DNA from: Candidatus Gastranaerophilales bacterium | GTDB lineage: Bacteria > Cyanobacteriota > Vampirovibrionia > Gastranaerophilales > Gastranaerophilaceae | NCBI GenBank assembly: GCA_944323145.1 | Contig: CALURJ010000010.1 | Span: 1 to 64,000 of the forward strand | DNA length: 64,000 nucleotides | Direction: 5' to 3' | In this document: in pieces, positions 46,046 to 60,887 of the stretch | How the letters are laid out: every line of letters begins with the position of its first letter | Numbering within the stretch: the first letter of the stretch is position 1 | Notes under the pieces: generated by a model | What the model was told of the DNA's origin: nothing | Databases searched by the model: none | The model's input: only the letters and a program-made list of their open reading frames with translations | Made by a program: the position numbers and the translations under genes

Positions 46046-47170
46046 TTAAAATTTAATATCATAAAACTTTTTCTTTATAATATTTTTTAAATCATAATTT
46101 TTTAAAATTTCAATGATTTTATCAGCACTATTTATACCTTCATACGGATTAATAATATTCTTTTTTTTGAATTTAAATGCGGTGTTTAATGCATTTAATA
46201 TTTCATCCTTTAATGGTTGGCAGTTAATTATGCTTTGAGCTTGAATACGTCCTTTTTGTCTATCTCCGATATTAACTGTCGGAATATTAAAACTGGGAAC
46301 TTCAATAATTCCGCTGGAAGAATTCCCGACAACCGCATCAACAAATTGCAATGCAGATAAATATCTCAATACCCCTAATGATTTATATGCTTTTGAATTT
46401 ATATGAGTATTTGTAAATTCATTTATAAGTTCAAATATATAATTATTTCCACTGTCAGAATTGGGCATTGTAAAAATTATATTTGTATTTTTTAATTCAT
46501 CAAAGGCAGAAAGAAGCTCAGAAAATTGTTTTTTTGCGGAGTCTTTTTCAAGTGTTACGGGATGAAATGTTACCAGAAGATTTTTTTCGCCGAATTGAAA
46601 ATCTATAGATTTTTCTAATTCTTTTTTAGATAGTAATTTCATCTGTTTTATATTTTCAACTCCAAGAGCACCAACATTAAATACTCTTTCGGGATTTTCT
46701 CCAAGCTGGATTACACGATGTCTGTAAGATTCACAGGATGTAAAATGCAGGTGGCTCATTTTTGTTATTGCGTGGCGTATTGCCTCATCAATAGCTCCTT
46801 CAGTTGTTTCGCCTCCGTAAAGATGGGCTGTCGGAATATTATTTAACATTGCAGCAATTGCAACAGCCATAATTTCATATCTGTCTCCCAGAATTACAAG
46901 AATATCAGGCTGAATGTCATTAAATAACACTGAAAATTTTTCAATAGCCAGAGCTATAGAATGTGATGCTTCCTGTTCAATATCAATATTGATTTTGTAG
47001 TTAACTGGAATATTAATTTCGTCAATCGTATTGCCGAATTTTTCAGACAAATGCATCCCTGATGCTACCAGTATCAAATCAATATCCGGATCAGAATACA
47101 TTTTATCCAGCATTCGCGACATTATTCCATATTCAGCTCTTGTTGTTGTAACTACACAAATCCGCCTCAT
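46046..47170 (-). CDS. neuC: Hydrolysing NDP-GlcNAc 2-epimerase, NeuC/LegG type
   Basis: 374 residues. RRICVVTTTRAEYGIM start, ILVILGDRYEIMAVAIAA, HLYGGETTEGAIDEAIRHA and the end region GNSSSGIIEVPSFNIPTVNI are typical. It would release ManNAc or its 6-deoxy-4-amino version (2,4-diacetamido form) from an NDP-sugar for NeuB. The start overlaps neuB's stop by 4 nt (ATGA). Last gene of the 13-gene sugar operon; no CMP transferase follows. Confidence 0.9.
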   Translation of the reverse strand: MRRICVVTTTRAEYGIMSRMLDKMYSDPDIDLILVASGMHLSEKFGNTIDEINIPVNYKINIDIEQEASHSIALAIEKFSVLFNDIQPDILVILGDRYEIMAVAIAAMLNNIPTAHLYGGETTEGAIDEAIRHAITKMSHLHFTSCESYRHRVIQLGENPERVFNVGALGVENIKQMKLLSKKELEKSIDFQFGEKNLLVTFHPVTLEKDSAKKQFSELLSAFDELKNTNIIFTMPNSDSGNNYIFELINEFTNTHINSKAYKSLGVLRYLSALQFVDAVVGNSSSGIIEVPSFNIPTVNIGDRQKGRIQAQSIINCQPLKDEILNALNTAFKFKKKNIINPYEGINSADKIIEILKNYDLKNIIKKKFYDIKF

Positions 47171-48150
47171 ATTAAATCGTCCTCTTCATAATCTTTTTGT
47201 GCAGCAGTGCCTATAATTTCATCCCATTTCATAGGTGATATTCCATTTCCCGGGCGTTTGACACATAAATTATTTTCCGTAAAAATTTCCCCTTTTTTAA
47301 TAGGAATTTTGGCTATTATAGATTTTCGGGCTATGCTCATATTTTTCAGCTCGGATTGGGAAGGCTTTTTTATACCGTTACCGAGCATTAATTCTGTTTT
47401 TCTTATTGCATTTACCATTGTTTTCAATTCATCGGGTTCTAAAGATGCTTTGTGATCGGGACCGGACATATTTTTATCAAGTGTAAAATGTTTTTCAATA
47501 ATTTCAGCCCCGAGAGCAACTGCTGCAATAGGCGCTTCTATTCCTAAAGTATGGTCGGAATAACCGATAGGGAGGTTAAATTCTTCTTTTAAAGTGGTGA
47601 TTGCAGACAAGTTTGCATCACAAGGAGGTGTTGGATATTCAGTATTTGCATGAAGAAGAGAGACTTTACAATCTTTTAAAATTGCCAATGCATCTTTTAT
47701 TTCATCAATTGTTGACATTCCGGTTGATAAAATAACCTCTTTTTTATAAGAATTAATTTTTCTTAAATAAGGTAAGTTTGTAATTTCACCTGAAGGGATT
47801 TTAAAAAGCGGCACACCTAAATCAGCCAGAAAATCAATACTTTCTAAATCAAAGGGGGTTGAAATAAACAGTATACCTATATTATCACAATATTGTTTCA
47901 ATTCAGTGAATTGATTAAAAGAAAGTTCCAAACTTTTAAGCATTTCAAGTTGTGATTCATCCGAATTAGTAGTTTCTTTTTGATACTTAGCTTTTTCTGC
48001 AGATCTCCCTGCAAGATTTACCGCTTTAAAAGTCTGAAATTTAATATAATCACAACCTGCTTGCTTTGCGATGTCAGCCATTCTTTTGGCAAGTCCAATT
48101 GAGCCGTTATGATTAACTCCTGCTTCTGCTATTAAAGTAGTTTTCCTCAT
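47167..48150 (-). CDS. neuB: Nonulosonate synthase, NeuB/LegI type
   Basis: 327 residues. Condenses a mannosamine-type hexose with PEP to give a nine-carbon nonulosonic acid. TIM-barrel motifs IAEAGVNHNGS, YIKFQTFKA, PSGEITNLPYL, YPTPPCDANLSA, GYSDHTLGIEAPIAAVALGA, IEKHFTLDKNMSGPDHK; C-terminal SAF-type domain (KKGEIFTENNLCVKRPG). Whether sialic, legionaminic or a related acid is made cannot be proven; the neighbours favour a legionaminic-type route. Overlaps both neighbours by 4 nt. Confidence 0.94.
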   Translation of the reverse strand: MRKTTLIAEAGVNHNGSIGLAKRMADIAKQAGCDYIKFQTFKAVNLAGRSAEKAKYQKETTNSDESQLEMLKSLELSFNQFTELKQYCDNIGILFISTPFDLESIDFLADLGVPLFKIPSGEITNLPYLRKINSYKKEVILSTGMSTIDEIKDALAILKDCKVSLLHANTEYPTPPCDANLSAITTLKEEFNLPIGYSDHTLGIEAPIAAVALGAEIIEKHFTLDKNMSGPDHKASLEPDELKTMVNAIRKTELMLGNGIKKPSQSELKNMSIARKSIIAKIPIKKGEIFTENNLCVKRPGNGISPMKWDEIIGTAAQKDYEEDDLI

Positions 48151-48743
48151 TTTATATTTTTCTCCGGTTTTGCTAATTTTTGAGCTTTGATGAAAGAATT
48201 TTGATGTATATTTGTATATTGAACAACTACTGAATTGCTTCCGACAAATGTATTATTTTCTATTACTGTTCCACCGTTTATTACTGCAGATGTTGAAATA
48301 TGACAATTGTCCTTAATAACAGCATCGTGTTCAATTAAAGCTTTTGAATTCACTATACAATTATTTCCTATACGTGCGTTAGCGTTAACAAGTGCGTGAT
48401 GCATTATGATTGTACCCTCACCTATTATGGCATGCTTTGATACATAAGCCAGCGGTGAAATAATTGTTGCAAGATTTGCTTTTAAATTTTTCAACAGATC
48501 ATAGAGTTCTATGCGTTTAACAGGTGAATGGATTTGACCTATTGTGATTAGAAAATTGTTTTCAGGTGTTACATATTTATTTATATTATCATCGGAATCT
48601 ATAATTTTGTACCCTAAAACATTTTCCCCGATTTTTTCTTTTAAATCAATTAAACCGATAATGTTATATTTTTTTTCTTGCTCTATAACGTCAATACAAG
48701 ATCTGCAATGTCCGCCTGCGCCTATTAAAATTAAATTTCTCAT
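48147..48743 (-). CDS. NeuD-family sugar O/N-acetyltransferase
   Basis: 198 residues. NeuD/PglD type: N-terminal Rossmann-like part (RNLILIGAGGHCRSCIDVIE) and C-terminal left-handed beta-helix hexapeptide repeats (AIIGEGTIIMHHALVNANAR, GNNCIVNSKALIEHDAVIKD). It would N-acetylate the C4 amino group made by the LegC-type aminotransferase, or O-acetylate the acid. Overlaps both neighbours by 4 nt. Confidence 0.88.
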   Translation of the reverse strand: MRNLILIGAGGHCRSCIDVIEQEKKYNIIGLIDLKEKIGENVLGYKIIDSDDNINKYVTPENNFLITIGQIHSPVKRIELYDLLKNLKANLATIISPLAYVSKHAIIGEGTIIMHHALVNANARIGNNCIVNSKALIEHDAVIKDNCHISTSAVINGGTVIENNTFVGSNSVVVQYTNIHQNSFIKAQKLAKPEKNIK

Positions 48744-49876
48744 TTTGCCTCATCAAAATTTTTGATTGTTTTTATTACTCTTTCAATTTCTTTATCCGTC
48801 AAATTTGTAGAGCAAGGAATATTTACAATATGGTCATAATATTTTTTTGCTCTTTCAATTTTATAACTTTGAGCGTTTAAATATGGTTTTAATGTATTAA
48901 TAAGTTTCCAAATTGGTCTTGTCTGAATTTGATTTTCATTCATATATTTTATAAGTTCATCTCTTTTATCTGTAACTAAAGAATAGAACCATCTGTTTGA
49001 ACGGATATTTTTATCAAACGGGAGTAAGTTTAACCCTGCATCAAGATATTTATTATAATTAATTTCCTTGATTTTTATAAATTCTTCCAACTGTTCAAAT
49101 TGAGCTAATCCTAGTGCTGCCTGTAAATTGGTCATTCTGTAATTATAACCGATTTCATTATGAACAAAATAAACTAAATCATCTTTAGCCTGTGTTGAAA
49201 GGTATTTTGCATGTTTTACATCATCAGGATTGTTTGCAACAAGCATTCCCCCTCCGCCGGTTGTAATGATTTTGTTGCCGTTGAAGGAATATACTCCGAA
49301 ATCTCCTATAGTTCCGGCAAATTTACCGGTAGATTTTTCATAAGTTCCTAAAGCTTCTGTTGCATCTTCTATAATCTTGAAATTATATTGTTTGCCAAGT
49401 GTTATTAAAGAATCCATATCAACCATATTGCCGAAAATATGAACGGCAACAACGGCCTTAATATGACGATGTGATTTTTTATTAATCAATTTATCATCAA
49501 TGAAATCACATTCTTCTTTAATAAACTCTTCCAATTTATTTACATCCAAACACAAAAAATCATTGCAATCCATAAATACAGGTTCTGCACCGCAATATTT
49601 GACGGGATTAACCGCGGCAATAAAAGTCAATGCCGGAACAATAACCTCATCCCCGTAAGTGACCCCTGCCAATATCATAGCAAGATGTAAACCGGCAGTT
49701 CCTGATTGAACTGCGCAGGCAAGGTCCGTTTTTACATATTTGGCAAACACTTCTTCAAATTTTTGAATTTCTGCACCGCCTGTTGAAACCCAGGCATCTT
49801 TTACAACATTTGTAACATATTCAAGTTCTTTTCCATTAAAATTGGGAATTGATAACGGTATAAATTTTTCTTTCAT
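48740..49876 (-). CDS. LegC-type aminotransferase (DegT/DnrJ/EryC1)
   Basis: 378 residues. Installs an amino group at C4 of an NDP-4-keto-6-deoxy sugar, using PLP. The LegC-family start is visible (FIPLSIPNFNGKELEYVTNV, DAWVSTGGAEIQKFE). The PLP Lys is in VYSFNGNKIITTGGGGMLV, and IIEDATEALG carries the PLP Asp. A stretch with several Lys and His (about residues 115-140) is typical of LegC. The substrate-making 4,6-dehydratase (LegB) is absent from this window. Confidence 0.87.
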   Translation of the reverse strand: MKEKFIPLSIPNFNGKELEYVTNVVKDAWVSTGGAEIQKFEEVFAKYVKTDLACAVQSGTAGLHLAMILAGVTYGDEVIVPALTFIAAVNPVKYCGAEPVFMDCNDFLCLDVNKLEEFIKEECDFIDDKLINKKSHRHIKAVVAVHIFGNMVDMDSLITLGKQYNFKIIEDATEALGTYEKSTGKFAGTIGDFGVYSFNGNKIITTGGGGMLVANNPDDVKHAKYLSTQAKDDLVYFVHNEIGYNYRMTNLQAALGLAQFEQLEEFIKIKEINYNKYLDAGLNLLPFDKNIRSNRWFYSLVTDKRDELIKYMNENQIQTRPIWKLINTLKPYLNAQSYKIERAKKYYDHIVNIPCSTNLTDKEIERVIKTIKNFDEAK

Positions 49877-49877
49877 T

Positions 49878-50948
49878 TTAATCCTTTAAACATTTATCTT
49901 TTAGTTTTTGTGACATATTTTCCATTTCTTTTAACTGCCCCATATCAAGCCAGTTGCCTGAAGATATAGGAAATACTCCGACCTTTTTATGCTCATTGAT
50001 ATATTTTTGGGCTAAGTCCGTCATGTGAATAAATTCTCCGTTCAAATTTTCTATAACTTCAGGTTCAATCAGATATACACCTACATTTATAAGAAAAGAA
50101 AAAGCAGGCTTTTCTTCAATATTCTGTATAGCTCCATTTGAATCAGAATTAATTACGCCGTAAGGAATTTGTACTTCTTTAATAGCACAAACTAAAGTAA
50201 TAAGATTATTTTCTTTTTTATGCCATTTATAAATACATGAAAAATCCGCATCAACAAGAATATCACAGTTTGAAACAAAACATGTATCATTTATCTTTTC
50301 TTTTAGTAGAGATAAACCGCCTGCGGTTCCCAAAAATTTCGGCTCAACTTCATAATGTAAGTTGAAATCCTTTTCAATATCATTATAATAGGCTTTAATC
50401 ATATTGCTTTTATGATTTAAGATAAGATGAAAATTTTTGCATCCAAATTTTTTAAAACTGTTTATAACATGTGTACAAACCGGCAAATCTCCTATCGGTA
50501 TGAGTGGTTTGGGTAGAACTTTTGTATAAGGATAAAGTCTTGTACCTTCTCCGCCTGCCATAATAATGACTGAAACATTTTCCGGTAATTTCTGTGTAGG
50601 ATGAATAATGGCATTTTTATCATTCCAGTATACAATATTTATAATTTGTCCATTATCATTTACTATCGGATAAACAAGAAGGCTTCTTTCCTGAATTTGT
50701 TTATTCAATTCCTCAGTTTGATTTTCCTTAAATACAATGGGGTTTTTATTCATTGCAACAGAGATTTTCGCGTTTAAATCCCCATTTTTAAGAACATACC
50801 TGCGCATATCGCCGTCTGTAAAAATTCCCAAAAGCCTTTTGTTGCTATCAACAATAAATGCCGTCTTTTTTCCGGTATTTTCAATCTTTTGAATAGCTTC
50901 TTTTACCGTAATATCAGGTGATATGAGATATTTATCTATATTTTCCAT
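49878..50948 (-). CDS. CBS-domain sugar nucleotidyltransferase, PtmE-like
   Basis: 356 residues from ATG 50948 (AAAGGA just ahead). Two CBS domains (residues about 8-120) come first, then a sugar-nucleotidyltransferase domain beginning VSVIIMAGGEGTRLYPYTKV with KPLIPIGDLPVCTHVI. In Campylobacter, PtmE has this order and makes GDP-GlcN for the legionaminic route. It is therefore the likely nucleotide-activating step here, though base specificity (GTP, CTP or UTP) is not visible. Confidence 0.83.
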   Translation of the reverse strand: MENIDKYLISPDITVKEAIQKIENTGKKTAFIVDSNKRLLGIFTDGDMRRYVLKNGDLNAKISVAMNKNPIVFKENQTEELNKQIQERSLLVYPIVNDNGQIINIVYWNDKNAIIHPTQKLPENVSVIIMAGGEGTRLYPYTKVLPKPLIPIGDLPVCTHVINSFKKFGCKNFHLILNHKSNMIKAYYNDIEKDFNLHYEVEPKFLGTAGGLSLLKEKINDTCFVSNCDILVDADFSCIYKWHKKENNLITLVCAIKEVQIPYGVINSDSNGAIQNIEEKPAFSFLINVGVYLIEPEVIENLNGEFIHMTDLAQKYINEHKKVGVFPISSGNWLDMGQLKEMENMSQKLKDKCLKD

Positions 50949-50958
50949 AAATTTTCCT

Positions 50959-52047
50959 TTATACGAAACTGTCATTCGGACAGTTTGGAAGTTCTTTAGA
51001 TTTTAAGTATTCATAAATTTTTATATTATGTGAAATAGAACGACAATCGATACAATGACCGGTTACAAACCTTTCATTTAATTTTTGAATAACGGAATTA
51101 TGACGTTCACTATTCCAAATTTTACTAAACGGTTGTTCATTAATGTTTCCTATAGAAAATTCTTCCTGACCTATTAACGGCTGGCAAAGGTAAACATTAC
51201 CATCGTAATTTATAAAAGCATTTGCCCTGATTTCAGCACAGCTGCAACATTTATAATCTTTGAACTTATCTCCGTTATGGTGTTTGTAATGTTGAATACC
51301 TTTTTCTCCTAAGCCTAAGAGATTAGTTTTTTTAGGGTCAATATCACCTGCATTCTGATTAATTAATTCTTGTACCATGAGTTTTATATCATCTGAAAGA
51401 TCAATTTTCTTTTGTTCATAATCAACTGCAGGAATAAAAATAATATAATCAAATCCTTCTTCAATTGCTTTTTTATAATTTGAAATGATAGTATTATAAT
51501 TTATACTGTTAATTACGCATCTTGCTCCTACAATTACATTTTCGTTTTTAGATTGCAGTATTTTGGGCAGAGCAAATTGTCTGTCGAAGTTATCAGCTCC
51601 AGTAATCTTTTTATACTCATCTTCATTTGTTGAATATACGGATACTGCAATATAGTTGAATTTTTTCAGTAAGTTCAGATCTTTATCCTGAATTGGAACC
51701 GAATTTGTAATTAAAGCTGTTTCTATACCATTATCCAGAAATTTTTTTGCATATTTGTCCCAGTTTTTGTATGTTGTTGGTTCCCCTCCGCCGCTAAAAT
51801 ATACTGCTTTGACGCCTAAATTAATCAAATCTTTAACAGTTTGTTCAACAACTTCCTGAGAAAGAACTTTGAAATTTTTTCTTCTTTGTGCATAAGAGCA
51901 GTGAACACAATTGTAATTACAGGTAGTACACCAATGAAATTCCACTGCTACAGGACCTAATATATTTTTATTCTGACTGTTTCTTTCAATAAAATGCGGT
52001 AATATTTTTAACGGATTCAATAATTCTTTTAAATCAACATTTTTCAT
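50959..52047 (-). CDS. Radical SAM enzyme with SPASM-like C-terminus
   Basis: 362 residues. The 4Fe-4S/SAM motif is CNYNCVHC (about residues 43-50), followed by the GGEP motif in YFSGGGEPTTY. The C-terminal part has a SPASM/twitch-like Cys set: YKCCSCAEIRANAFINYDG, then VYLCQP and HCIDCRS. Such enzymes do radical dehydrogenation, epimerisation or peptide modification. Inside a sugar operon, a C-H modification of a hexose or of a carrier is conceivable, but the substrate is unknown. GAGG lies before the ATG; 2-nt gap to the ThDP gene. Confidence 0.85.
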   Translation of the reverse strand: MKNVDLKELLNPLKILPHFIERNSQNKNILGPVAVEFHWCTTCNYNCVHCSYAQRRKNFKVLSQEVVEQTVKDLINLGVKAVYFSGGGEPTTYKNWDKYAKKFLDNGIETALITNSVPIQDKDLNLLKKFNYIAVSVYSTNEDEYKKITGADNFDRQFALPKILQSKNENVIVGARCVINSINYNTIISNYKKAIEEGFDYIIFIPAVDYEQKKIDLSDDIKLMVQELINQNAGDIDPKKTNLLGLGEKGIQHYKHHNGDKFKDYKCCSCAEIRANAFINYDGNVYLCQPLIGQEEFSIGNINEQPFSKIWNSERHNSVIQKLNERFVTGHCIDCRSISHNIKIYEYLKSKELPNCPNDSFV

Positions 52048-52049
52048 TT

Positions 52050-53831
52050 TTAGCCTCGATTATATTTCAATTTTTCTAATTCTACTCTATCCATAAACGG
52101 ATACATATCACTTAAATGAACTTTTTGAGATTTCCCGTCTTTGGTTAATCTTGATTTAACACATGGAGATGCCGGGTTGTCATATTGTTGTTTTATTTCC
52201 AGTAATGCTCTTTCTTTTTGTGTAAATAACCAGTTTAATTTAGCATCAAGCTGCCCGTTTGTTTCACAAACATTATATTTGAAATCAAAAGTCTTTGCAA
52301 TCATTTCAAATGACGGAAAACTTATACCTGTATCATAAGTACAGCCGAAATTTTTTCCGTTGAAATAATTTTTGCACGTTTGAACAATTCCGCAATAACC
52401 GTCATTTGAAAATATAACAATTTTAATTGGTAAATTATTATGTTTTATAGTTTGTAATTCTTGCAAATTCATCATAAAGCTGCCGTCGCCTGTAACAAGA
52501 AATACCTCTTTATTTGCGGCGGCACAGGCTCCTATCGCCGCAGGAATATCATATCCCATAGATCCGCAGTTCATATTAGTCAAAGTTCTTTGCCCATAAT
52601 GAAGATTGCCGTTTTGAATTCTTCCTGACATTGATGAACTGTTTCCTAATACAGTAATATTATTTTCAGGCTCTAAAATTTGATATTTTTTCCAGAAATT
52701 ATATGCATTAACCCTTTCGCTATCAGCTCCGACAGCATTTTCAAATTTATCAAATTTTTTCTTTATTTTGTTACAATAATTCACCCAATTCACGGGGGCT
52801 TCAATATATGATTTTTCTTCAACTATTTTATCAAATAAATCCTCCAGATCTGAATGAATAAATTTGTGAATATATAATCCTGATTTTTTAGATTCATCTT
52901 CATTAACATCAATCATAACTATTTTAGCATTTTTTGCGAACGTGTCTTGAGAGAAGCTTGTTTGTTTAAATCCCAAACTACATCCTAAAACGACTAATAA
53001 ATCACAATTATCAAGAATTAAATTTCCGCATCTTGTTCCGACATTACCGGATGTTCCAAAATATAATTCGTTTTCATCTGGGAGTACATCGGATACAATA
53101 CATGCGGAAACAGACGGAATTTTCCAAATGTCCATAACTTTATATAATTTCTTAGTAAGGCTCGCACTTCGGACAGCACTTCCAAGTAAAAATACGGGAG
53201 CTTTTGCATTTTTGATCAATGTTTTTAGTTCTTCAAAATCGTTTGCCGAGCATTTAATCATCTCCGGTTTTGGTAAAACAGGAAGTAAGTCGTCTTCTTC
53301 AACGATAGCCGATTGAACATCAAGCGGTATATCCAGCCATACCGGCCCGCGTCTGCTTGACATTGCTATATCAATAGCTTTTTGTACTTCTTGTTTTATT
53401 GAAAGCGGATCGATTATCATTTTTGCATATTTAGTCATATTTTTAACGGAGTTTACTATATCAAATTCCTGTTCTCCCCGTCTGCGTAAATTTAACCCGC
53501 TTTCTGCAACTGTTGTGTTATATCTAACCTGACCGGATATTACAATCATTGGAATACTATCCTGATAAGCCCCCATGACTCCTGTTAGTGTATTTGTTCC
53601 GCCGGGACCGGATGTTACCAGACACAGAGCCATTTTATTTTTAATTCTTGCATAACCATCGCAAGCCATAGCACAAGCCTGTTCGTGATGATTAAAAATT
53701 ACGTTTATATCGGGATTAATAGCAGCAGCGTTATCTAAAAACATTGAACCTCCGCCAACTACGCAAAATGCATCGGTAATACCATTTTCCACAAGTGTTT
53801 CCATAATTATATCAGCTGCACGTTTTTTCAT
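52050..53831 (-). CDS. ThDP-dependent acetolactate-synthase-like enzyme, YerE-like role
   Basis: 593 residues. N-terminal ThDP Pyr domain with the catalytic Glu in IFNHHEQACAMACDGYARI, central domain, and C-terminal PP domain with GDGSFMMNLQELQTI and the Mg/ThDP loop ending in NDGYCGI. Biosynthetic acetolactate synthases look similar, but the setting beside rfbF, rfbG and rfbH suggests YerE, a ThDP flavoprotein that adds a two-carbon unit from pyruvate to CDP-3,6-dideoxy-4-ketohexose in yersiniose formation. It overlaps the acyltransferase gene by 20 nt. Confidence 0.82.
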   Translation of the reverse strand: MKKRAADIIMETLVENGITDAFCVVGGGSMFLDNAAAINPDINVIFNHHEQACAMACDGYARIKNKMALCLVTSGPGGTNTLTGVMGAYQDSIPMIVISGQVRYNTTVAESGLNLRRRGEQEFDIVNSVKNMTKYAKMIIDPLSIKQEVQKAIDIAMSSRRGPVWLDIPLDVQSAIVEEDDLLPVLPKPEMIKCSANDFEELKTLIKNAKAPVFLLGSAVRSASLTKKLYKVMDIWKIPSVSACIVSDVLPDENELYFGTSGNVGTRCGNLILDNCDLLVVLGCSLGFKQTSFSQDTFAKNAKIVMIDVNEDESKKSGLYIHKFIHSDLEDLFDKIVEEKSYIEAPVNWVNYCNKIKKKFDKFENAVGADSERVNAYNFWKKYQILEPENNITVLGNSSSMSGRIQNGNLHYGQRTLTNMNCGSMGYDIPAAIGACAAANKEVFLVTGDGSFMMNLQELQTIKHNNLPIKIVIFSNDGYCGIVQTCKNYFNGKNFGCTYDTGISFPSFEMIAKTFDFKYNVCETNGQLDAKLNWLFTQKERALLEIKQQYDNPASPCVKSRLTKDGKSQKVHLSDMYPFMDRVELEKLKYNRG

Positions 53832-55062
53832 ATTCTTTTTCTCTCCCTATTTTACCATTTGTATCTATATTAAAAAGGTTATATAAAAAATATTTTGTTT
53901 TTTTTCTCATTGGCATCTCAAAATATTTATATGATAACCAGGCAATTATATAAGTAAACAAAATAAATGCACATATATTTAATAAGTAGGAAGAAATATG
54001 ATGCCCGTTGTTCTTGAAAATCAGAATAAAAATTATATGCAGTAAGTATGATGAATAACTTATCTCTCCCAACCAAACTATCTGTTTCACTCGTAAAAAT
54101 GCTGCTCCGCCTAATGTAATAGAAAATACAAACACTGAGCATAATAATGAAAAAACTATAAAGCTAAACATATATGCAGTTGTGTGTGAAATATTTTCGT
54201 TAGCAATAGTTGACATCCAGCCGGAATTCATCATGCACAAAAATATTGCAATAATACTGAAATAAGATAATACTTTATAAATATTTTTATTAAATTTATC
54301 TTTTGCACAAATATAAAATTGTGCAATAGCACATCCTGACATGAATTGGAACATTCTGCCTCCAAGAGGAAACATATTTATAACCCAGTTTTGTGGAGTT
54401 ATGGACTTGTTAAAACCGAATAAATTTGTTAACAGCGGGTTAATAATATTACATTTGTACAAGAAAATAGCAAGAGCAGCATAAGCTGTTATAGAAAAGA
54501 TGAACAATGCGAGCGATGATTTTATAGTTCTTTTTTTGAACATATAAATTACAAATGGTATGAAAAATAAATAGAGTCCGAATTCCGTTGAAATTGACCA
54601 TGAAATATTGGCAGAACCTTGTAAATGAACAACAGGAATATTATATAAAAATGCATAAATCCAACTTTGTACACCCAATAAAAAAGCTGGTAAAGTTGCA
54701 AAATTTGCATTTACCATATTTGTATTATGATAACCTGTTATTAAATTATAAATAAAAAATCCGATTATAAAAACAAAATACAACGGATATAATCTTGCAA
54801 AACGGGCAATTAAAAATTTTAATATACCATCTTTAGCCGACTCTCTTATTTTGTCAGCATAATTATAATAAATAACAAAACCGCTTAGAATAAAAAATAA
54901 ATCCATTCCTATTATGCCACAGCAAATGAAATAATGTTTAAAAGCAAAGTTATAATTAAAAAATGAGTGGTACAATAACTGAATATGGTTGAGTATAATA
55001 AATAATGCCGCGATGCCGCGCAAGCCTGTTAACTCATCAATCATTACGCGTTTTACACTCAT
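53812..55062 (-). CDS. Membrane acyltransferase (acyltransferase 3/OafA family)
   Basis: 416 residues from ATG 55062, set by GGAGG 5 nt upstream and by a 4-nt ATGA overlap with the epimerase stop. About ten membrane helices. Family motifs ELTGLRGIAALFIILNHI (with the catalytic-type His), GIIGMDLFFILSGFVIYYNY and ARFARLYPLYFVF. It would transfer acetyl or another acyl group to a lipid-linked glycan at the membrane. Confidence 0.9.
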   Translation of the reverse strand: MSVKRVMIDELTGLRGIAALFIILNHIQLLYHSFFNYNFAFKHYFICCGIIGMDLFFILSGFVIYYNYADKIRESAKDGILKFLIARFARLYPLYFVFIIGFFIYNLITGYHNTNMVNANFATLPAFLLGVQSWIYAFLYNIPVVHLQGSANISWSISTEFGLYLFFIPFVIYMFKKRTIKSSLALFIFSITAYAALAIFLYKCNIINPLLTNLFGFNKSITPQNWVINMFPLGGRMFQFMSGCAIAQFYICAKDKFNKNIYKVLSYFSIIAIFLCMMNSGWMSTIANENISHTTAYMFSFIVFSLLCSVFVFSITLGGAAFLRVKQIVWLGEISYSSYLLHIIFILIFKNNGHHISSYLLNICAFILFTYIIAWLSYKYFEMPMRKKTKYFLYNLFNIDTNGKIGREKEYEKTCS

Positions 55063-55916
55063 ACTAACCTCCGATAATTCCTTTGCCATTCTATTTGTTT
55101 TACTATTCCCTGTTCTATAGGAGTGAAATAAAAATTCCCCATTTCTGCCAAAAGTCTGGTATTACTGGCTGTATATTCTTTGTTTAAGCCTTCTTTTGCA
55201 ATAATAATGCCGTTTTTATTCTCCATTTTTTCTGCAACTATCTTAGCTATAGAATACAAATCTATAGGTTTACCGCTTACAACATTGTAATCATGATATT
55301 TTGGGTTGTTGTCAATAAACCAGCTTATAATTTTTGCAAGGTCATCAACATAAATATAGTCAAAATAACAATTTTGACGGATTGTTATTGCTCTGTTATC
55401 AAGACAACAGTCGATTGCATCCCTGATAAATTTGCTTTTGGCATCGGTCGGTCCGTAACAGCCAAAAATTCTCAAATTATATATATTTTTGGACTTTCTG
55501 ATTTTTTCATTTATGAAATACTTAGCTCTGCCGTATGGACTGTCAGGAATACTACGTCCGATTTCAGTTTCTTTTGCCATTTTAATATCAAAATTTTTAT
55601 CGTATTCAGCCCCGGAACCTAGATGTAGTATTTTTTCTACTTTGTCTGAATATTCAGCAAGATTATCAAACGCAGAAATGATATCGGACTCCATTGTTTG
55701 TTCTGAATCAAGAGAATTTTTAGAAGGATTTGCAGCGGCACAATTTACAATTATATTAAAATTATTTTGAAAAAAATAATTTCTAACGGATTCTTTGTCA
55801 ATTAAATTTAATTCTGTTCTTTTAGGAGCCAAAATGTCATATTTTTCCGACAATAAAGGAATAATATTTTGTCCGATAAAACCCGTTCCGCCGGTAAGAA
55901 GTATACGTTTTTTCAC
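55059..55916 (-). CDS. NAD-dependent epimerase/dehydratase (sugar reductase)
   Basis: 285 residues of the extended SDR family: GGTGFIGQNIIPLLSEK gives the nucleotide-binding loop, SPYGRAKYFINE the YxxxK pair, and DYIYVDDLAKII the later conserved segment. In the yersiniose-type pathway a reductase of this class (YerF) acts after the ThDP step; an epimerase or 4-ketoreductase is equally possible. GTG start sharing one base with the rfbH stop; AAAGGAG upstream. Confidence 0.85.
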   Translation of the reverse strand: MKKRILLTGGTGFIGQNIIPLLSEKYDILAPKRTELNLIDKESVRNYFFQNNFNIIVNCAAANPSKNSLDSEQTMESDIISAFDNLAEYSDKVEKILHLGSGAEYDKNFDIKMAKETEIGRSIPDSPYGRAKYFINEKIRKSKNIYNLRIFGCYGPTDAKSKFIRDAIDCCLDNRAITIRQNCYFDYIYVDDLAKIISWFIDNNPKYHDYNVVSGKPIDLYSIAKIVAEKMENKNGIIIAKEGLNKEYTASNTRLLAEMGNFYFTPIEQGIVKQIEWQRNYRRLV

Positions 55917-57268
55917 TATTTATGCTCCTTTATGAACTTGTGAACGGTCTCGGATATCCTTCTTATTTCATTTTCGCCCAGTGCGGGAAATGTGCCGACC
56001 CAGAAGGTATTGTTCATTATAAATTCAGTATTAGGAAGAAGTTTATAGTGAGCTTCCGTCAACTCTTTCGAATTTATGATTTTTGAATTTCCTATTCTAA
56101 AATCTACATCGTTATCGACTATCATCGGCTGTCTTAATATATTGCCTGCAAACAGCTGGCGTGTACCGATTTTATGATTTTCTAAGTATTCTACCATTTG
56201 CTGTTTTGTAAATGGAGCTGTTTCTTTAACTGATATTAAATATCCGAACCATGAGGGTTTTACCCCTTCTTTTACCACAGGCAAAATTAAGTAGTCTTTC
56301 AAATCCGAAAGTAATTCTGTTAATAATTCCGCATTTCTGCGGCGGATTTCCAAGAAACCGTCTAATTTATCTATTTGGGAACAGCCTAAGGCAGCCTGCC
56401 AGTCAGTGATTTTCAGATTGTAACCGACATGTGAATAGGTATATTTATGATCATAACCAAATGGGAGATTACCAAGCTTTTGCGAAAATCTTTTTCCGCA
56501 GACTCCGTCTTTACCGGGCGGACAACAGCAATCTCTTCCCCAATCCCTGAATGACATAATTATTTTGTATAATAACGGGTCGTTTGTAATAACTGCTCCG
56601 CCTTCACCCATAGTTAAGTGGTGGGCCGGATAAAAACTGAATGTTCCTATATGACCGATTGTGCCGATTTTTTTACCTTTATATTCTCCGCCTAAGGCAT
56701 CACAGCTGTCTTCTATAACCCAGAGGTTATATTTTTCGGCAAGCTGCATAATCTTATCAAGGTCATAGCTGTTGCCGAGTGTATGTGCAAGAAATATTGC
56801 TTTAGTTTTCGGGGTAATTGCTTCTTCTATTTTATCGGCATCAATGTTGTATGTCCCGACCTCACAATCAATAAACACAGGTACCATACCATTTTGTATA
56901 ATCGGGTTGATTGTCGTGGGAAATCCGGCGGCAACTGAGATAACTTCATCTCCTTTTTTTAACCCTCTTTCACCGAGTTTATGCGAGGTTAAAGCAGAAA
57001 ATGCCAGCAGATTGGCACTTGAACCGGAATTAGTAGACAGTGCGTATTTTACTCCCATATATTTCGCAAATTTGCTTTCAAATTTCCTGTTAAATCTTCC
57101 TGCTGTCAGCCACATGTCAAGCGAGGCATCAATCATGTTCAAAAGTTCTTCTTCTCCGAGCAATTTCCCGCTTGGAGGTATATAATCAAATACTCTTTTT
57201 TTACCGTAAACTTCTTTATAATATTCTCGTGCGGCGTCTTTTACTTTACGACGAAGTTCTTGTTCCAC
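55916..57268 (-). CDS. rfbH: CDP-4-keto-6-deoxy-D-glucose-3-dehydrase (E1)
   Basis: 450 residues. PMP-dependent 3-dehydrase that removes the C3 hydroxyl. The hallmark is visible: the PLP Lys of aminotransferases is replaced by His in FSFYPAHHLTMGEGGAVI. The 2Fe-2S cysteines are in DWGRDCCCPPGKDGVCGKRF. A dedicated reductase (E3, RfbI/DdhD type) is not encoded in the operon, so another flavoprotein must supply electrons. GTG start at 57268 with AAAGGGA upstream; 28-nt overlap with rfbG. Confidence 0.95.
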   Translation of the reverse strand: MEQELRRKVKDAAREYYKEVYGKKRVFDYIPPSGKLLGEEELLNMIDASLDMWLTAGRFNRKFESKFAKYMGVKYALSTNSGSSANLLAFSALTSHKLGERGLKKGDEVISVAAGFPTTINPIIQNGMVPVFIDCEVGTYNIDADKIEEAITPKTKAIFLAHTLGNSYDLDKIMQLAEKYNLWVIEDSCDALGGEYKGKKIGTIGHIGTFSFYPAHHLTMGEGGAVITNDPLLYKIIMSFRDWGRDCCCPPGKDGVCGKRFSQKLGNLPFGYDHKYTYSHVGYNLKITDWQAALGCSQIDKLDGFLEIRRRNAELLTELLSDLKDYLILPVVKEGVKPSWFGYLISVKETAPFTKQQMVEYLENHKIGTRQLFAGNILRQPMIVDNDVDFRIGNSKIINSKELTEAHYKLLPNTEFIMNNTFWVGTFPALGENEIRRISETVHKFIKEHK

Positions 57269-58338
57269 TTTATATCCCTTTCATACATCTTGATTTGAGT
57301 ACAGGTAAATTCATACATATTTGTGTTTTTAGCATAAAAATATTTATACCATTCAACTGTTTTTTCCAAAGCTTGATGTGCGGAGTAAGAAGGAGTCCAC
57401 CCCAAGACTTTTTTTGCTTTTTCTATATTAAGCATTAAAAGGCCTGCCTCATGCAAAGGACTTTTTTCTCCGACAACAACTCTGCCCCTGCCGTAAAGTT
57501 CAGTAAGTTTTTTAGCAACCTCCGCAACTGTAAGGACACTTTCTTCATCAGGCCCGAAATTAAATCCGTCGGCATATTTTTTACCTTCTGTTAAAAGTTT
57601 TTCACCGAGCAGAAGATAACCGGATAAAGGTTCAAGTACATGCTGCCAGGGTCTTACAGCAATCGGGTTTCTAATTTCAATATCAATACCTTTGTTAATT
57701 CCTCTTATACAATCGGGAATAAGCCTGTCAAGCGCCCAATCGCCTCCGCCTATCACATTCCCTGCCCTTGCTGTTGCCATAGCATAAGTATTTTCTTCCT
57801 GTAAAAATGACCTCCGATAGGATGATGACATAATTTCTACACATCCTTTAGAGGATGAATACATATCATAACCGCCCATCGGGTCATCTTCCGTGTAACC
57901 TCTTTTGACTTCTTTGTTTTCATAGCATTTGTCAGTTGTTACATTTACAAAAGCTTTAACAGAAGGTATTTTTCTGGCTGCTTCAAGTACATTTAATGTT
58001 CCTATAACATTTGTTTGATAGGTGATAACAGGTTCGGAATATGAAAGTCTGACAAGCGGTTGTGCTGCAAGGTGAAAAACAATATCAGGTTCAAATTCCC
58101 GCATGGTTTTTTCTAAGTTTTTTGCATCAAGAATATCACCGATAACTGATTTTTCAATTTTATCCGAAATATTTAATTCTTCAAACATTGAAGGATTTGT
58201 ATTCGGTTCAAGAGAATATCCGCAAACTTTTGCCCCGAGTTGTGTAAGCCAGATTGCAAGCCAGCTGCCTTTAAAACCTGTGTGGCCTGTTAAAAATACT
58301 TTTTTATTTTTATATATTTGATTGTACTGATTGTACAT
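57241..58338 (-). CDS. rfbG: CDP-glucose 4,6-dehydratase
   Basis: 365 residues. Extended SDR: FLTGHTGFKGSWLAIWLTQL (nucleotide loop), VTTDKCYEN, DMYSSSKGCVE (YxxxK-like), and RAGNVIGGGDWALDRLIPD, which is the RfbG signature. It converts CDP-glucose to CDP-4-keto-6-deoxyglucose. GAGGAAG upstream; the start shares one base with the stop of the upstream glycosyltransferase (TAATG). Confidence 0.95.
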   Translation of the reverse strand: MYNQYNQIYKNKKVFLTGHTGFKGSWLAIWLTQLGAKVCGYSLEPNTNPSMFEELNISDKIEKSVIGDILDAKNLEKTMREFEPDIVFHLAAQPLVRLSYSEPVITYQTNVIGTLNVLEAARKIPSVKAFVNVTTDKCYENKEVKRGYTEDDPMGGYDMYSSSKGCVEIMSSSYRRSFLQEENTYAMATARAGNVIGGGDWALDRLIPDCIRGINKGIDIEIRNPIAVRPWQHVLEPLSGYLLLGEKLLTEGKKYADGFNFGPDEESVLTVAEVAKKLTELYGRGRVVVGEKSPLHEAGLLMLNIEKAKKVLGWTPSYSAHQALEKTVEWYKYFYAKNTNMYEFTCTQIKMYERDIKWNKNFVVK

Positions 58339-59906
58339 TATACTTCCTCAAATTCTTTTAAAAGACTGTCAACGTTGTCTTTATTAATCCCTCTATAGAG
58401 TTTTAATCCTAATTTTTTAATTTTTTCTTCCGTAAGTTTTGAGTAATCAAATTTTACAAGTTTTTCTATAATTTCCGGTTCAAAACGATACTTAATAACT
58501 TTCGCGGGATTTCCTGCAACTATTGCATAAGGCGGTACATCTTTTGTAACAACAGCTCCGGCTCCTATGACTGCACCCTGCCCTATTGTTACTCCGGATA
58601 AAATTAATGAATTTGTAGCTATCCATACATCATCTTTTACTATAATGTCACCTTTTGATTTAGCTTCTTTTGCTTCTGTTTTAAATGCCATAACTTTGAA
58701 AGGATAAGTTGACAGAGTGTGATAATCATGTTCTGAGGCTAAAATAAATTTTACTCCCGAGGCTATTGAACAAAATCTGCCGATTTTAAGTTTGTATGGA
58801 CAAACGCTGTCGCAGTAAGCAAGAATCTGTCCGTAAGAATATTCTCCTGTCTCAATAAATTTAGCGGTATTCGGGTCAACAATACTTATAAATTTATTTT
58901 TATTTGAATTTAACGTATTTTTATTTTTTCGTTTTTTTGAAATGTTAATACGTCCGCAAATTTTTATAATTTTTTTGTTATTAGTCTTTTCTATTGTGAT
59001 GACTTTATAAAAACATATTTTACAAAGGGCTTTAATGTAATTAACATAAAAATACGGTTTTGTTTTGTAATATTTATACAAATATTTTAAATATCCGCCT
59101 TTTATAAAATTAAAGCATTTTTTGTAATCAAAATAATAGTGATTAATATGTTTTAATAAAAGTTCTTTTAGAGTTTTTTCATAAGTCCTGTTTGAAAGCA
59201 GACCTTCTTGTTTTAATATTTGTAATATCGAAATAAAGTTTTCTCCGAAAATTTGTGGGATATTATAGCCGCCTTTTTTATATATATTGATAGCTTCCAT
59301 TAGGTGTTTTTCTATAATTATAGCCGACCCGTCTTTCATAAGTTTGGCGAAAATATCAATTTGGCCGAAACACAAATCCGAAAATCTTATTGGAGAATCA
59401 ATCATTTTATATTTTGAAGTGTTTACGCATAAACCGCCTATCCATGTGCAGGAATATGTTATTTGAGAAATAAGTTCATCAAAACTGTTTACGTTTATAA
59501 TGGATTTTTCCGGATTTTTTAAATCTCTGTTAGTGAAAAATATGATATTATCATTTGAATTTTCAAGTAGAGATACAATTTCTCCCAGCGTATCTTTTTT
59601 GAAATAAATATTGTCATTATTTAATTTAGCAAATTTTCCGTTTGCAAGTTTTAATACTTCAATAAAATTTTTGTCTTTTATATTTTCCTGCTGTCGTTTA
59701 TAAATAATTTTATCAGGGAATTTTTGCTGATATTTTCTGCATAAATTTTCAGTGTCATCATCAGAACAATTATCGGATATAACAATTTCGATTTTATTAG
59801 TATTTTGAAAAGTTATATCATCAGTTATTTCTCTTAAAGTATGTTCAAGATACATACTCCTGTCTCTTGTCGGAATACAAATAGATAAAACAGGTTTTTC
59901 AGCCAT
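58338..59906 (-). CDS. Family-2 glycosyltransferase fused to hexapeptide acetyltransferase
   Basis: 522 residues. The N-terminal GT2 domain (about 1-260) opens [18 protein letters not shown] and has [10 protein letters not shown], resembling abequosyl- and related dideoxyhexosyltransferases. A helical linker rich in Tyr, Phe and Lys (about 260-345) leads to a CatB/Vat-like left-handed beta-helix acetyltransferase: [16 protein letters not shown] and [20 protein letters not shown]. It probably transfers the deoxysugar and acetylates sugar or acceptor. One continuous frame, so a true fusion in this sequence. Confidence 0.88.
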
Positions 59907-60694
59907 TATAAACTCCTCTTATTCCATATTGCCCACGGAGCATTATCTTCTTTCCACATTTCAGTCAGGTCATTTTTGTCTTTTAGTGTGTCCATCGGAC
60001 GCCAAAATCCGCCGTGTTTATAAGCATTCAGCTTTTTGTCTCTGGCGAGGTTTTCTAATGGCCCGCGTTCAAAAATTATATTATCTCCTTGAGGTATGTA
60101 ATCAAAAATTTCAGGTTCGCAAACAAAAAAACCTCCGTTTATCCAGGATTCATCTCCTGCAGGTTTTTCTTTAAACGAAGTTATAATGTTATCCTCTTTT
60201 ATCACTAGAGCTCCAAATCTGCCTGAAGGCTGAACCGCTGTGATTGTAACAGATTTTTTGGACGCTTCATGTGAAGATATTAGTTTATTTATATCAATAT
60301 CAGCAACACCGTCGCCGTAGGTTAGTAAAAATCGTTCGTTTCCGATGTATTCCTGTGCTTTTTTTATTCTTCCGCCTGTCATTGTGTCCTGACCGGTATA
60401 AAGTATGGTAACTTTCCAGGGTTCTGTTTGCATTCTGTGGATGTCAACTATATTGTTAAGCAAATCAACAGTAATATCGGAATATTGCTGGTAGTAGTGT
60501 ACAAAATAATCTTTTATAATATGCGACTTATATCCGGTAAGAATTATAAAATCATTAAATCCGTAATAGGAATAAATCTTCATAATATGCCATAAAATCG
60601 GTTTCCCTCCGATTTCGACCATTGGTTTTGGCACCAATTTTGTCTCTTCACTTAAGCGTGTTCCCAATCCGCCGGCTAAAATTACAACTTTCAT
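59906..60694 (-). CDS. rfbF: Glucose-1-phosphate cytidylyltransferase
   Basis: About 262 residues. [20 protein letters not shown] is the nucleotidyltransferase start; [20 protein letters not shown] and the later [13 protein letters not shown] fit RfbF. It makes CDP-glucose from CTP and glucose-1-phosphate and so opens the CDP-sugar route. ATG 60694 is preferred over the adjacent TTG 60697 (AAGGG upstream). First gene of the operon; the promoter must lie in the roughly 70 nt between here and the tRNA-Ser terminator. Confidence 0.95.
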
Positions 60695-60765
60695 CAAATT
60701 ACCCTTATACTCTAAATTAATATAATATTTAGCACAGAAATGATTAAATTACAATTAACAAAGAA

Positions 60766-60797: not shown

Positions 60798-60887
60798 TGG
60801 AGGAGGAGGTGGGATTCGAACCCACGGTACGCGTGAACGTACGACAGTTTTCAAGACTGCTCCAATCAACCGCTCTGGCACTCCTCC
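60798..60887 (-). tRNA. tRNA-Ser (TGA)
   Basis: On the minus strand: acceptor GGAGGAG with CTCCTCC, anticodon loop CTTGAAA giving TGA, a long variable arm with stem GTACG / CGTAC, T loop TTCGAAT, then T and an encoded CCA. The long variable arm marks a class II tRNA. If the seven-base acceptor is right, the discriminator is U rather than the usual G. Confidence 0.93.

Follow-up and report, generated by a model that had tools for sequence, protein, structure and literature searches.

A gene on the minus strand of the analysed DNA (positions 50959–52047; 362 amino acids, ATG start) encodes a radical SAM enzyme that stands in the slot of the dehydratase LegB within a nonulosonate gene cluster, and a close homologue holds the same slot in a second genus of the family. 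The DNA, referred to below as the window, is a 64,000-nucleotide stretch from a Candidatus Gastranaerophilales genome that is 99.95% complete (G000). The best reading of the evidence, held tentatively, is that the enzyme is a Twitch-type radical SAM dehydrogenase that stands in for LegB and oxidises C4 of an NDP-linked GlcNAc, and that the product of the pathway is the nonulosonate Neu5Ac7NAc. We infer three parts of this reading, namely the supply of a ketone to the aminotransferase LegC, C4 as the site of oxidation, and the survival of the 6-hydroxyl, and the support is limited to two examples from one family. The broader claim that a radical SAM dehydrogenase displaced the SDR dehydratase LegB, and that gut Gastranaerophilales thereby produce Neu5Ac7NAc naturally as a surface sugar, is more doubtful.

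The original prediction placed the gene in a surface-sugar operon, and this is borne out by a cluster of 13 genes, all on the minus strand. From position 60697 downwards the operon contains RfbF (glucose-1-phosphate cytidylyltransferase, 59906–60697; TIGR02623, 387.6 bits, cut-off 300.25), a GT2 glycosyltransferase fused to a hexapeptide acetyltransferase (58338–59906), RfbG (CDP-glucose 4,6-dehydratase, 57241–58338; TIGR02622, 492.6 bits, cut-off 278.45), RfbH (CDP-4-keto-6-deoxyglucose 3-dehydrase, 55916–57268; PRK15407, 666 bits, cut-off 423), an NAD-dependent epimerase/reductase of the SDR type (55059–55916; PF01370), an acyltransferase-3 membrane protein (53812–55089; PF01757) and a ThDP enzyme of the acetolactate-synthase type (52050–53831), which we take from its context to be YerE-like. 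The radical SAM gene follows, and after it come a CBS-domain nucleotidyltransferase (49878–50975; PF00483 and PF00571), a LegC-family aminotransferase of the DegT/DnrJ/EryC1/StrS type (48740–49876; TIGR04181, 449.6 bits, cut-off 420), a NeuD/LegH-type sugar N-acetyltransferase (48147–48743; TIGR03570, 175.4 bits, cut-off 160.8), the nonulosonate synthase NeuB/LegI (47167–48150; TIGR03569, 492.3 bits, cut-off 399.65) and the hydrolysing 2-epimerase NeuC/LegG (46046–47170; TIGR03568, 448.3 bits, cut-off 235.9). The half from RfbF to the ThDP gene fits a CDP-linked branched sugar, presumably of the yersiniose kind, and the other half fits a 5,7-diamino nonulosonate. The CBS-domain nucleotidyltransferase, which we assume to be PtmE-like, probably activates GlcNAc-phosphate, and its position beside the radical SAM gene is compatible with either a UDP- or a GDP-linked substrate.

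A tRNA-Ser gene (tga, 60798–60887) lies directly upstream of the operon and hisS lies beyond NeuC after a gap; these two genes bracket the operon, which may be a variable island. The hexapeptide acetyltransferase part of the GT2 fusion is Vat/CatB-like and forms one polypeptide with the glycosyltransferase. No partner reductase (E3) for RfbH, the E1 component, is present among those operon genes that were scanned.

The assignment to the radical SAM superfamily rests on a CX3CX2C motif (C43, C47 and C50, within CTTCNYNCVHC, residues 40–50) whose cysteines are kept in all 39 aligned relatives, on a GGGEP motif (residues 86–90) and on a match to the Pfam Radical_SAM model (PF04055, 73.7 bits, cut-off 29.5), and thus confirms the identity first given to the gene. 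The Pfam SPASM model (PF13186) matches the C-terminal part at 42.6 bits (cut-off 21.5). Among the best 25 of 55 NCBIfam matches the SPASM domain model (TIGR04085; 32.6 bits, cut-off 27) is the only one above its threshold, and the three best enzyme-level matches, AhbC, the W-cofactor maturase and the anaerobic sulfatase maturase, score 69–74 bits against cut-offs of 349–650; the model for the deaminase DesII (TIGR04426) gives 31.5 bits against 450. No second copy of the protein was found in the window's genome at an E-value of 1e-3. The gene overlaps that of the CBS-domain nucleotidyltransferase by 17 nt and is separated from the ThDP gene by 2 nt (gene end at 52050, gene start at 52047).

A single close homologue was found. 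It is 79% identical over residues 1–362 and lies at a locus (L002) on a 7.9-kb contig of a Gastranaerophilales MAG (G459, 88% complete) that belongs to the window's family (f1) but to another genus; G945 is the same MAG (identical over the 10.9 kb compared). At the nucleotide level (79.2% amino-acid identity, 361 codons) the protein is conserved while the fourfold sites have diverged (only 35 of 84 identical), which shows a real gene under constraint. Searches with the protein or with an alignment of the two yielded no additional close homologue. Matches came from 1 of 146 relatives (E 1e-30) and, where scoring was limited to the top five or six candidates per genome, from 1 of 386 genomes of the phylum (1e-25), from 2 of the 333 genomes in the MAG's family (1e-20; one of these matches has just 29% identity) and from 2 of the 383 in the window's family (1e-40). 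The genome sets overlap, and every count includes either the MAG or the genome of the window. None was found in plasmids searched with the protein at 1e-20, in E. coli genomes searched by blastn with the DNA of the radical SAM and nucleotidyltransferase genes, or in viral contigs searched with the protein alone or with an alignment, and phages and plasmids at 1e-5 gave weak matches only (22–32% identity).

The C-terminal part of the enzyme carries four cysteines, C270, C288, C332 and C335, that are kept in 38, 38, 39 and 39 of the 39 aligned relatives, respectively. The alignment (A3) consists of 35 viral-contig loci, two extra radical SAM genes (L105 and L131) and the two close homologues; it drew on 44 viral-contig loci, nine of which (L108, L115, L116, L117, L123, L130, L133, L134 and L135) were left out as short, fused, redundant or odd. 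Cysteines on both sides of a hairpin together with a CX2C pair indicate, as far as the sequence goes, a Twitch domain with one auxiliary cluster. A full SPASM domain with two auxiliary clusters is described as a seven-cysteine motif, CX9-15GX4C-CX2CX5CX3C-C (PMC6231123), and beyond C332 and C335 the enzyme has only C356, which is absent from L002. The expectation of a SPASM-like, cysteine-rich C-terminus therefore stands with regard to the SPASM models and the four cysteines, but the domain is of the Twitch type rather than a full SPASM.

LegC requires a 4-keto sugar that is normally supplied by LegB (PMC6137143). The window's genome contains six matches to the LegB model (TIGR04180; cut-off 475 bits). 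The best of them reaches 177 bits and is in fact RmlB, which scores 508 bits with the RmlB model and lies beside RmlC and RmlD. A search with PF02719 found no LegB- or CapD-type dehydratase in this genome (best match RfbG, 62.1 bits) and, in the MAG, only GalE-, RmlD- and RmlB-like genes; the model presumably covers other UDP-GlcNAc 4,6-dehydratases as well. The gene order at L002 is FkbM methyltransferase, radical SAM gene, LegC (451 bits, cut-off 420) and NeuD, and the MAG carries NeuC and the end of NeuB (at a contig edge) on another contig. Both genomes with the radical SAM gene thus keep LegC, NeuD, NeuB and NeuC, which argues that the ketone is still needed.

The LegC model was run over 240 relatives, 19 of which gave a match at 1e-100 and eight, including the window's genome, a match over the cut-off. 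Together these represent 21 LegC places, and the 20 outside the window are all covered by 19 examined stretches. LegB is present in all seven of the other genomes with LegC over the cut-off (441–527 bits to TIGR04180, the top model in every case; four of the seven pass 475), where it adjoins LegC or, in L062 and L063, lies one gene away. A further locus under the LegC cut-off (L068) also carries LegB (466 bits). The lack of a recognised LegB in both radical SAM genomes compared with its presence in seven of seven comparable relatives corresponds to p = 1/36 (calculated by hand). No homologue of the radical SAM enzyme was found in four of the LegB genomes (G048, G102, G110 and G226) or in the LegC stretch, the part compared, of the other three (G792, G829 and G834). 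The absence of a nearby LegB is not unique to the radical SAM clusters, since three stretches (L066, L067 and L072) contain a LegC-like gene under the cut-off with NeuB and NeuC and, within the stretch, neither LegB nor such a radical SAM gene. The other eight LegC-like stretches contain no NeuB and probably represent other aminotransferases.

The gene between LegB and LegC in L062 (10586–11692, also present in L063) encodes 368 amino acids with a cysteine-rich N-terminus and has no Pfam match at 1e-3; no NeuB was seen on the 7.7-kb contig of L063. L067 and L072 (genomes G813 and G819) contain a cytidylyltransferase (by Pfam in L067, by eye in L072), NeuD, NeuB and NeuC, with Gfo/Idh-like genes nearby (by eye), and the CBS-domain nucleotidyltransferase occurs in L067 and not in L072.

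A tree of 22 LegC-like proteins places those of the window, L002 and L064 (genome G792) in one clade (support 100/100) whose members are about 70% identical and far from the rest; the pairing of L002 with L064 inside the clade (91/90) is below the starred level. In L064, where the LegC is 69% identical to the window's, LegB lies directly before LegC, in the place that the radical SAM gene takes in L002. The window's NeuB and NeuC are 65–68% identical to those of the LegB clusters L062 and L064. The occurrence of the same type of LegC beside either LegB or the radical SAM gene suggests a 4-keto sugar of the GlcNAc type as the product of both.

Of the two halves of the operon, the enzyme most likely forms part of the nonulosonate one, because at L002 it adjoins LegC and NeuD on a contig without ThDP or CDP-sugar genes. 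It is also the best conserved of the three genes common to the window and L002 (79%, with 72% for LegC and 59% for NeuD). Close homologues of known unrelated substrate outside glycan clusters would have spoken against a role in glycan synthesis; the only one found lies beside LegC and NeuD.

In the proposed pathway, SAM would be reductively cleaved at the cluster held by C43, C47 and C50, and the resulting 5'-deoxyadenosyl radical would take the C4 hydrogen of UDP- or GDP-GlcNAc. The hydroxyalkyl radical would lose a proton and pass its electron to the auxiliary cluster at C270, C288, C332 and C335, giving NDP-4-keto-GlcNAc. LegC would aminate the C4 ketone, NeuD would acetylate the amine, NeuC would epimerise the sugar and release 2,4-diacetamido-2,4-dideoxy-mannose, and NeuB would condense the latter with PEP. 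LegB takes off the 6-hydroxyl while it forms the ketone, which a dehydrogenase would not do; the retained 6-hydroxyl would become the C9 hydroxyl of the nonulosonate, and the product would be 5,7-diacetamido-3,5,7-trideoxy-nonulosonate (Neu5Ac7NAc), that is, legionaminic acid with a C9 hydroxyl. Neu5Ac7NAc and Leg5,7Ac2 are described as one oxygen apart, at C9 (PMC11356810), and the former as a synthetic probe made chemoenzymatically (PMC11356810, PMC9840695). Neu5Ac7NAc is in effect a hybrid between sialic acid and legionaminic acid. The radical enzyme may thus make the same kind of keto-sugar as LegB by other chemistry and so give rise to an unusual sugar. Of the reactions initially suggested for it, C–H oxidation is the one in line with the favoured reading. 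Loss of oxygen at C3 was set aside on chemical grounds, as the nonulosonate ring closes through O3. An 8-epimerisation of the EpaA/EpaB type known from Acinetobacter was set aside as well; it is attributed to a short-chain dehydrogenase together with a protein in which a cytidylyltransferase is fused to an aldo-keto reductase (PMC12053666).

One functional parallel concerns BtrN, whose product goes to the DegT-family aminotransferase BtrS, as that of the window's enzyme would go to LegC. BtrN is described as a Twitch dehydrogenase with a four-cysteine auxiliary cluster that converts an alcohol to a ketone (PMC9012708), and it thus shares with the window's enzyme the single auxiliary cluster and the proposed reaction, but the sequence match is weak (phmmer E 9e-4), the substrate is a cyclitol rather than a nucleotide sugar and the protein is shorter (246 residues in 4m7t). 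DesII, the best PDB match by sequence (E 1.5e-5), acts on a nucleotide-linked hexose and dehydrogenates TDP-quinovose (PMC11434129), whereas its physiological reaction is a deamination and the protein is longer. The legionaminic acid pathway shares LegC, NeuD/LegH, NeuC/LegG and NeuB/LegI with the window, but in the window's genome LegB was not found, the radical SAM gene occupies its place and no LegF is recognised.

The latter result follows from a search with PF02348 for the CMP-nonulosonate synthetase (LegF/NeuA), which yielded only KdsB (222.5 bits, cut-off 155.2), IspD and GlmU in the window's genome. In the MAG the search gave IspD, GlmU, a match whose 197 bits are typical of KdsB, and one more that stays under the cut-off; none of them was recognised as a CMP-nonulosonate synthetase. 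A further cytidylyltransferase, with PseF as the best model or a location within the nonulosonate cluster, is present in all four LegB genomes searched (G792, two genes with 67 and 127 bits to the PseF model; G226, 66; G048, 188; G102, 170); all of these scores are below the cut-off of 205.7 and may well be compatible with legionaminate synthetases. The lack of a recognised synthetase in both radical SAM genomes argues against a plain legionaminate-like pathway, or else KdsB or another family activates the sugar. The end of the pathway may therefore differ in these genomes, with a product that is not an ordinary CMP-activated nonulosonate, or KdsB or a synthetase of another family might activate an unusual sugar.

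A different end product is also what would be expected if the enzyme acted elsewhere on the sugar, by epimerisation, deoxygenation or C–H oxidation after LegC, and either the ketone came from an unrecognised dehydratase or the pathway made another sugar altogether. Radical SAM enzymes perform such reactions on sugars, and DesII acts downstream of the DegT-family aminotransferase DesI. The reaction of DesII itself is described in PMC11434129. Distant homologues (24–27% identity) occur near NeuB-family genes, with no LegC in the stretch, on a Solidesulfovibrio plasmid and in the phage contig L131. We nevertheless consider this alternative unlikely, although it deserves serious weight, given that no LegB- or CapD-type dehydratase was recognised in the nearly complete genome and that loss of O3 would prevent formation of the nonulosonate pyranose ring.

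The Solidesulfovibrio plasmid pDCAR1 (L079, NZ_CP026539.1, 73864–90826) carries three radical SAM genes, one of them 24% identical to the window's, adjoining pseF, a NeuB-family gene, a PfkB kinase and a SIS-domain gene. The phage contig L131 (2680–9281) contains a short NeuB-family gene (PF03102, 206 bits) with two distant radical SAM relatives, and the phage contig L128 contains NeuB with one. These arrangements hint at a possibly wider occurrence of radical SAM enzymes in nonulosonate-like clusters than the original prediction, which called them rare in such operons, had supposed. No report joining radical SAM enzymes with legionaminic or nonulosonic acids was found in the open-licence PMC literature, and none on radical SAM enzymes with nucleotide sugar, lipopolysaccharide and SPASM together.

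If the enzyme instead replaced LegB in full, by taking off the C6 oxygen too or by some other way of delivering the same 4-keto-6-deoxy sugar, the end product would be ordinary legionaminic acid. The shared slot and the mutual exclusion with LegB speak for such a replacement too, and the window's LegC, NeuB and NeuC are 66–69% identical to those of the LegB cluster L064, so that the substrates may match. The four-cysteine Twitch pattern fits a net oxidation better, and we know of no precedent for a 4,6-dehydration by a radical SAM enzyme, which makes this explanation improbable.

It is very unlikely that the enzyme acts with the ThDP gene on the CDP-linked branched sugar, as the original prediction inclined to think: the 2-nt gap between the two genes is confirmed, but a functional link is not supported by L002, where tblastn found none of RfbF, RfbG, RfbH and the ThDP gene (the RfbH query merely touches LegC, at 26% identity) on a contig of only 7.9 kb, from which the CBS-domain nucleotidyltransferase is also absent.

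The fold predicted by AlphaFold from the A3 alignment (pLDDT 83.7, pTM 0.86) matches BlsE best by Z-score (24.1 over 298 residues at 3.2 Å, with the C-terminus covered), followed by SuiB (23.8), SkfB (23.6), DesII (21.5), viperin (20.8) and anSME (20.5), whereas BtrN (16.5) ranks under BlsE, SuiB, DesII and anSME; a model from a two-sequence input (pLDDT 37.6) was set aside. By Foldseek E-value SkfB and SuiB lead, BlsE is ninth and BtrN thirty-first. BlsE, DesII and viperin use nucleoside or nucleotide sugars and SuiB and SkfB use peptides, so the fold alone is not decisive, and the predicted model does not point specifically to dehydrogenases. Similarity within the Twitch/SPASM group is itself described as no guide to function (PMC6231123). 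BlsE, a cytosylglucuronate decarboxylase within one Z unit of SuiB and SkfB, resembles the window's enzyme in using a sugar nucleoside but catalyses a C5 decarboxylation, and the motif proposed for its auxiliary cluster, CXCXXC (PMC3715490), is unlike that of the window's enzyme. That the enzyme is a peptide or protein maturase (SuiB-, SkfB- or anSME-like) present in the operon by chance would agree with SuiB and SkfB among the best fold matches and with maturases among the best 25 of 55 NCBIfam matches, all far under their cut-offs, but is highly improbable in view of the tight packing of the window's genes, which leaves no room for a precursor on either side, the absence of a PqqD/RRE domain in the Pfam scan and the conservation of the gene next to LegC, or one gene off, in two genera.

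Every route to 7-amino nonulosonates known to us begins with an SDR 4,6-dehydratase, an enzyme that couples the 7-amino group to the loss of the 9-hydroxyl. If the reading as a C4 dehydrogenase is true, a radical dehydrogenase would break this link, and 7-amino sialic acids could then arise by a natural pathway. Chemoenzymatically made glycans with a sugar of the Neu5Ac7NAc type are reported to have withstood both of the bacterial sialidases tried and, unlike legionaminic acid, to have been poorly bound by pooled human IgG (PMC11356810), and influenza neuraminidases are reported to have cleaved such glycans (PMC9840695). A gut commensal that makes a 7-amino sialic acid would, if the reading holds, bear on the recognition of self-like glycans.
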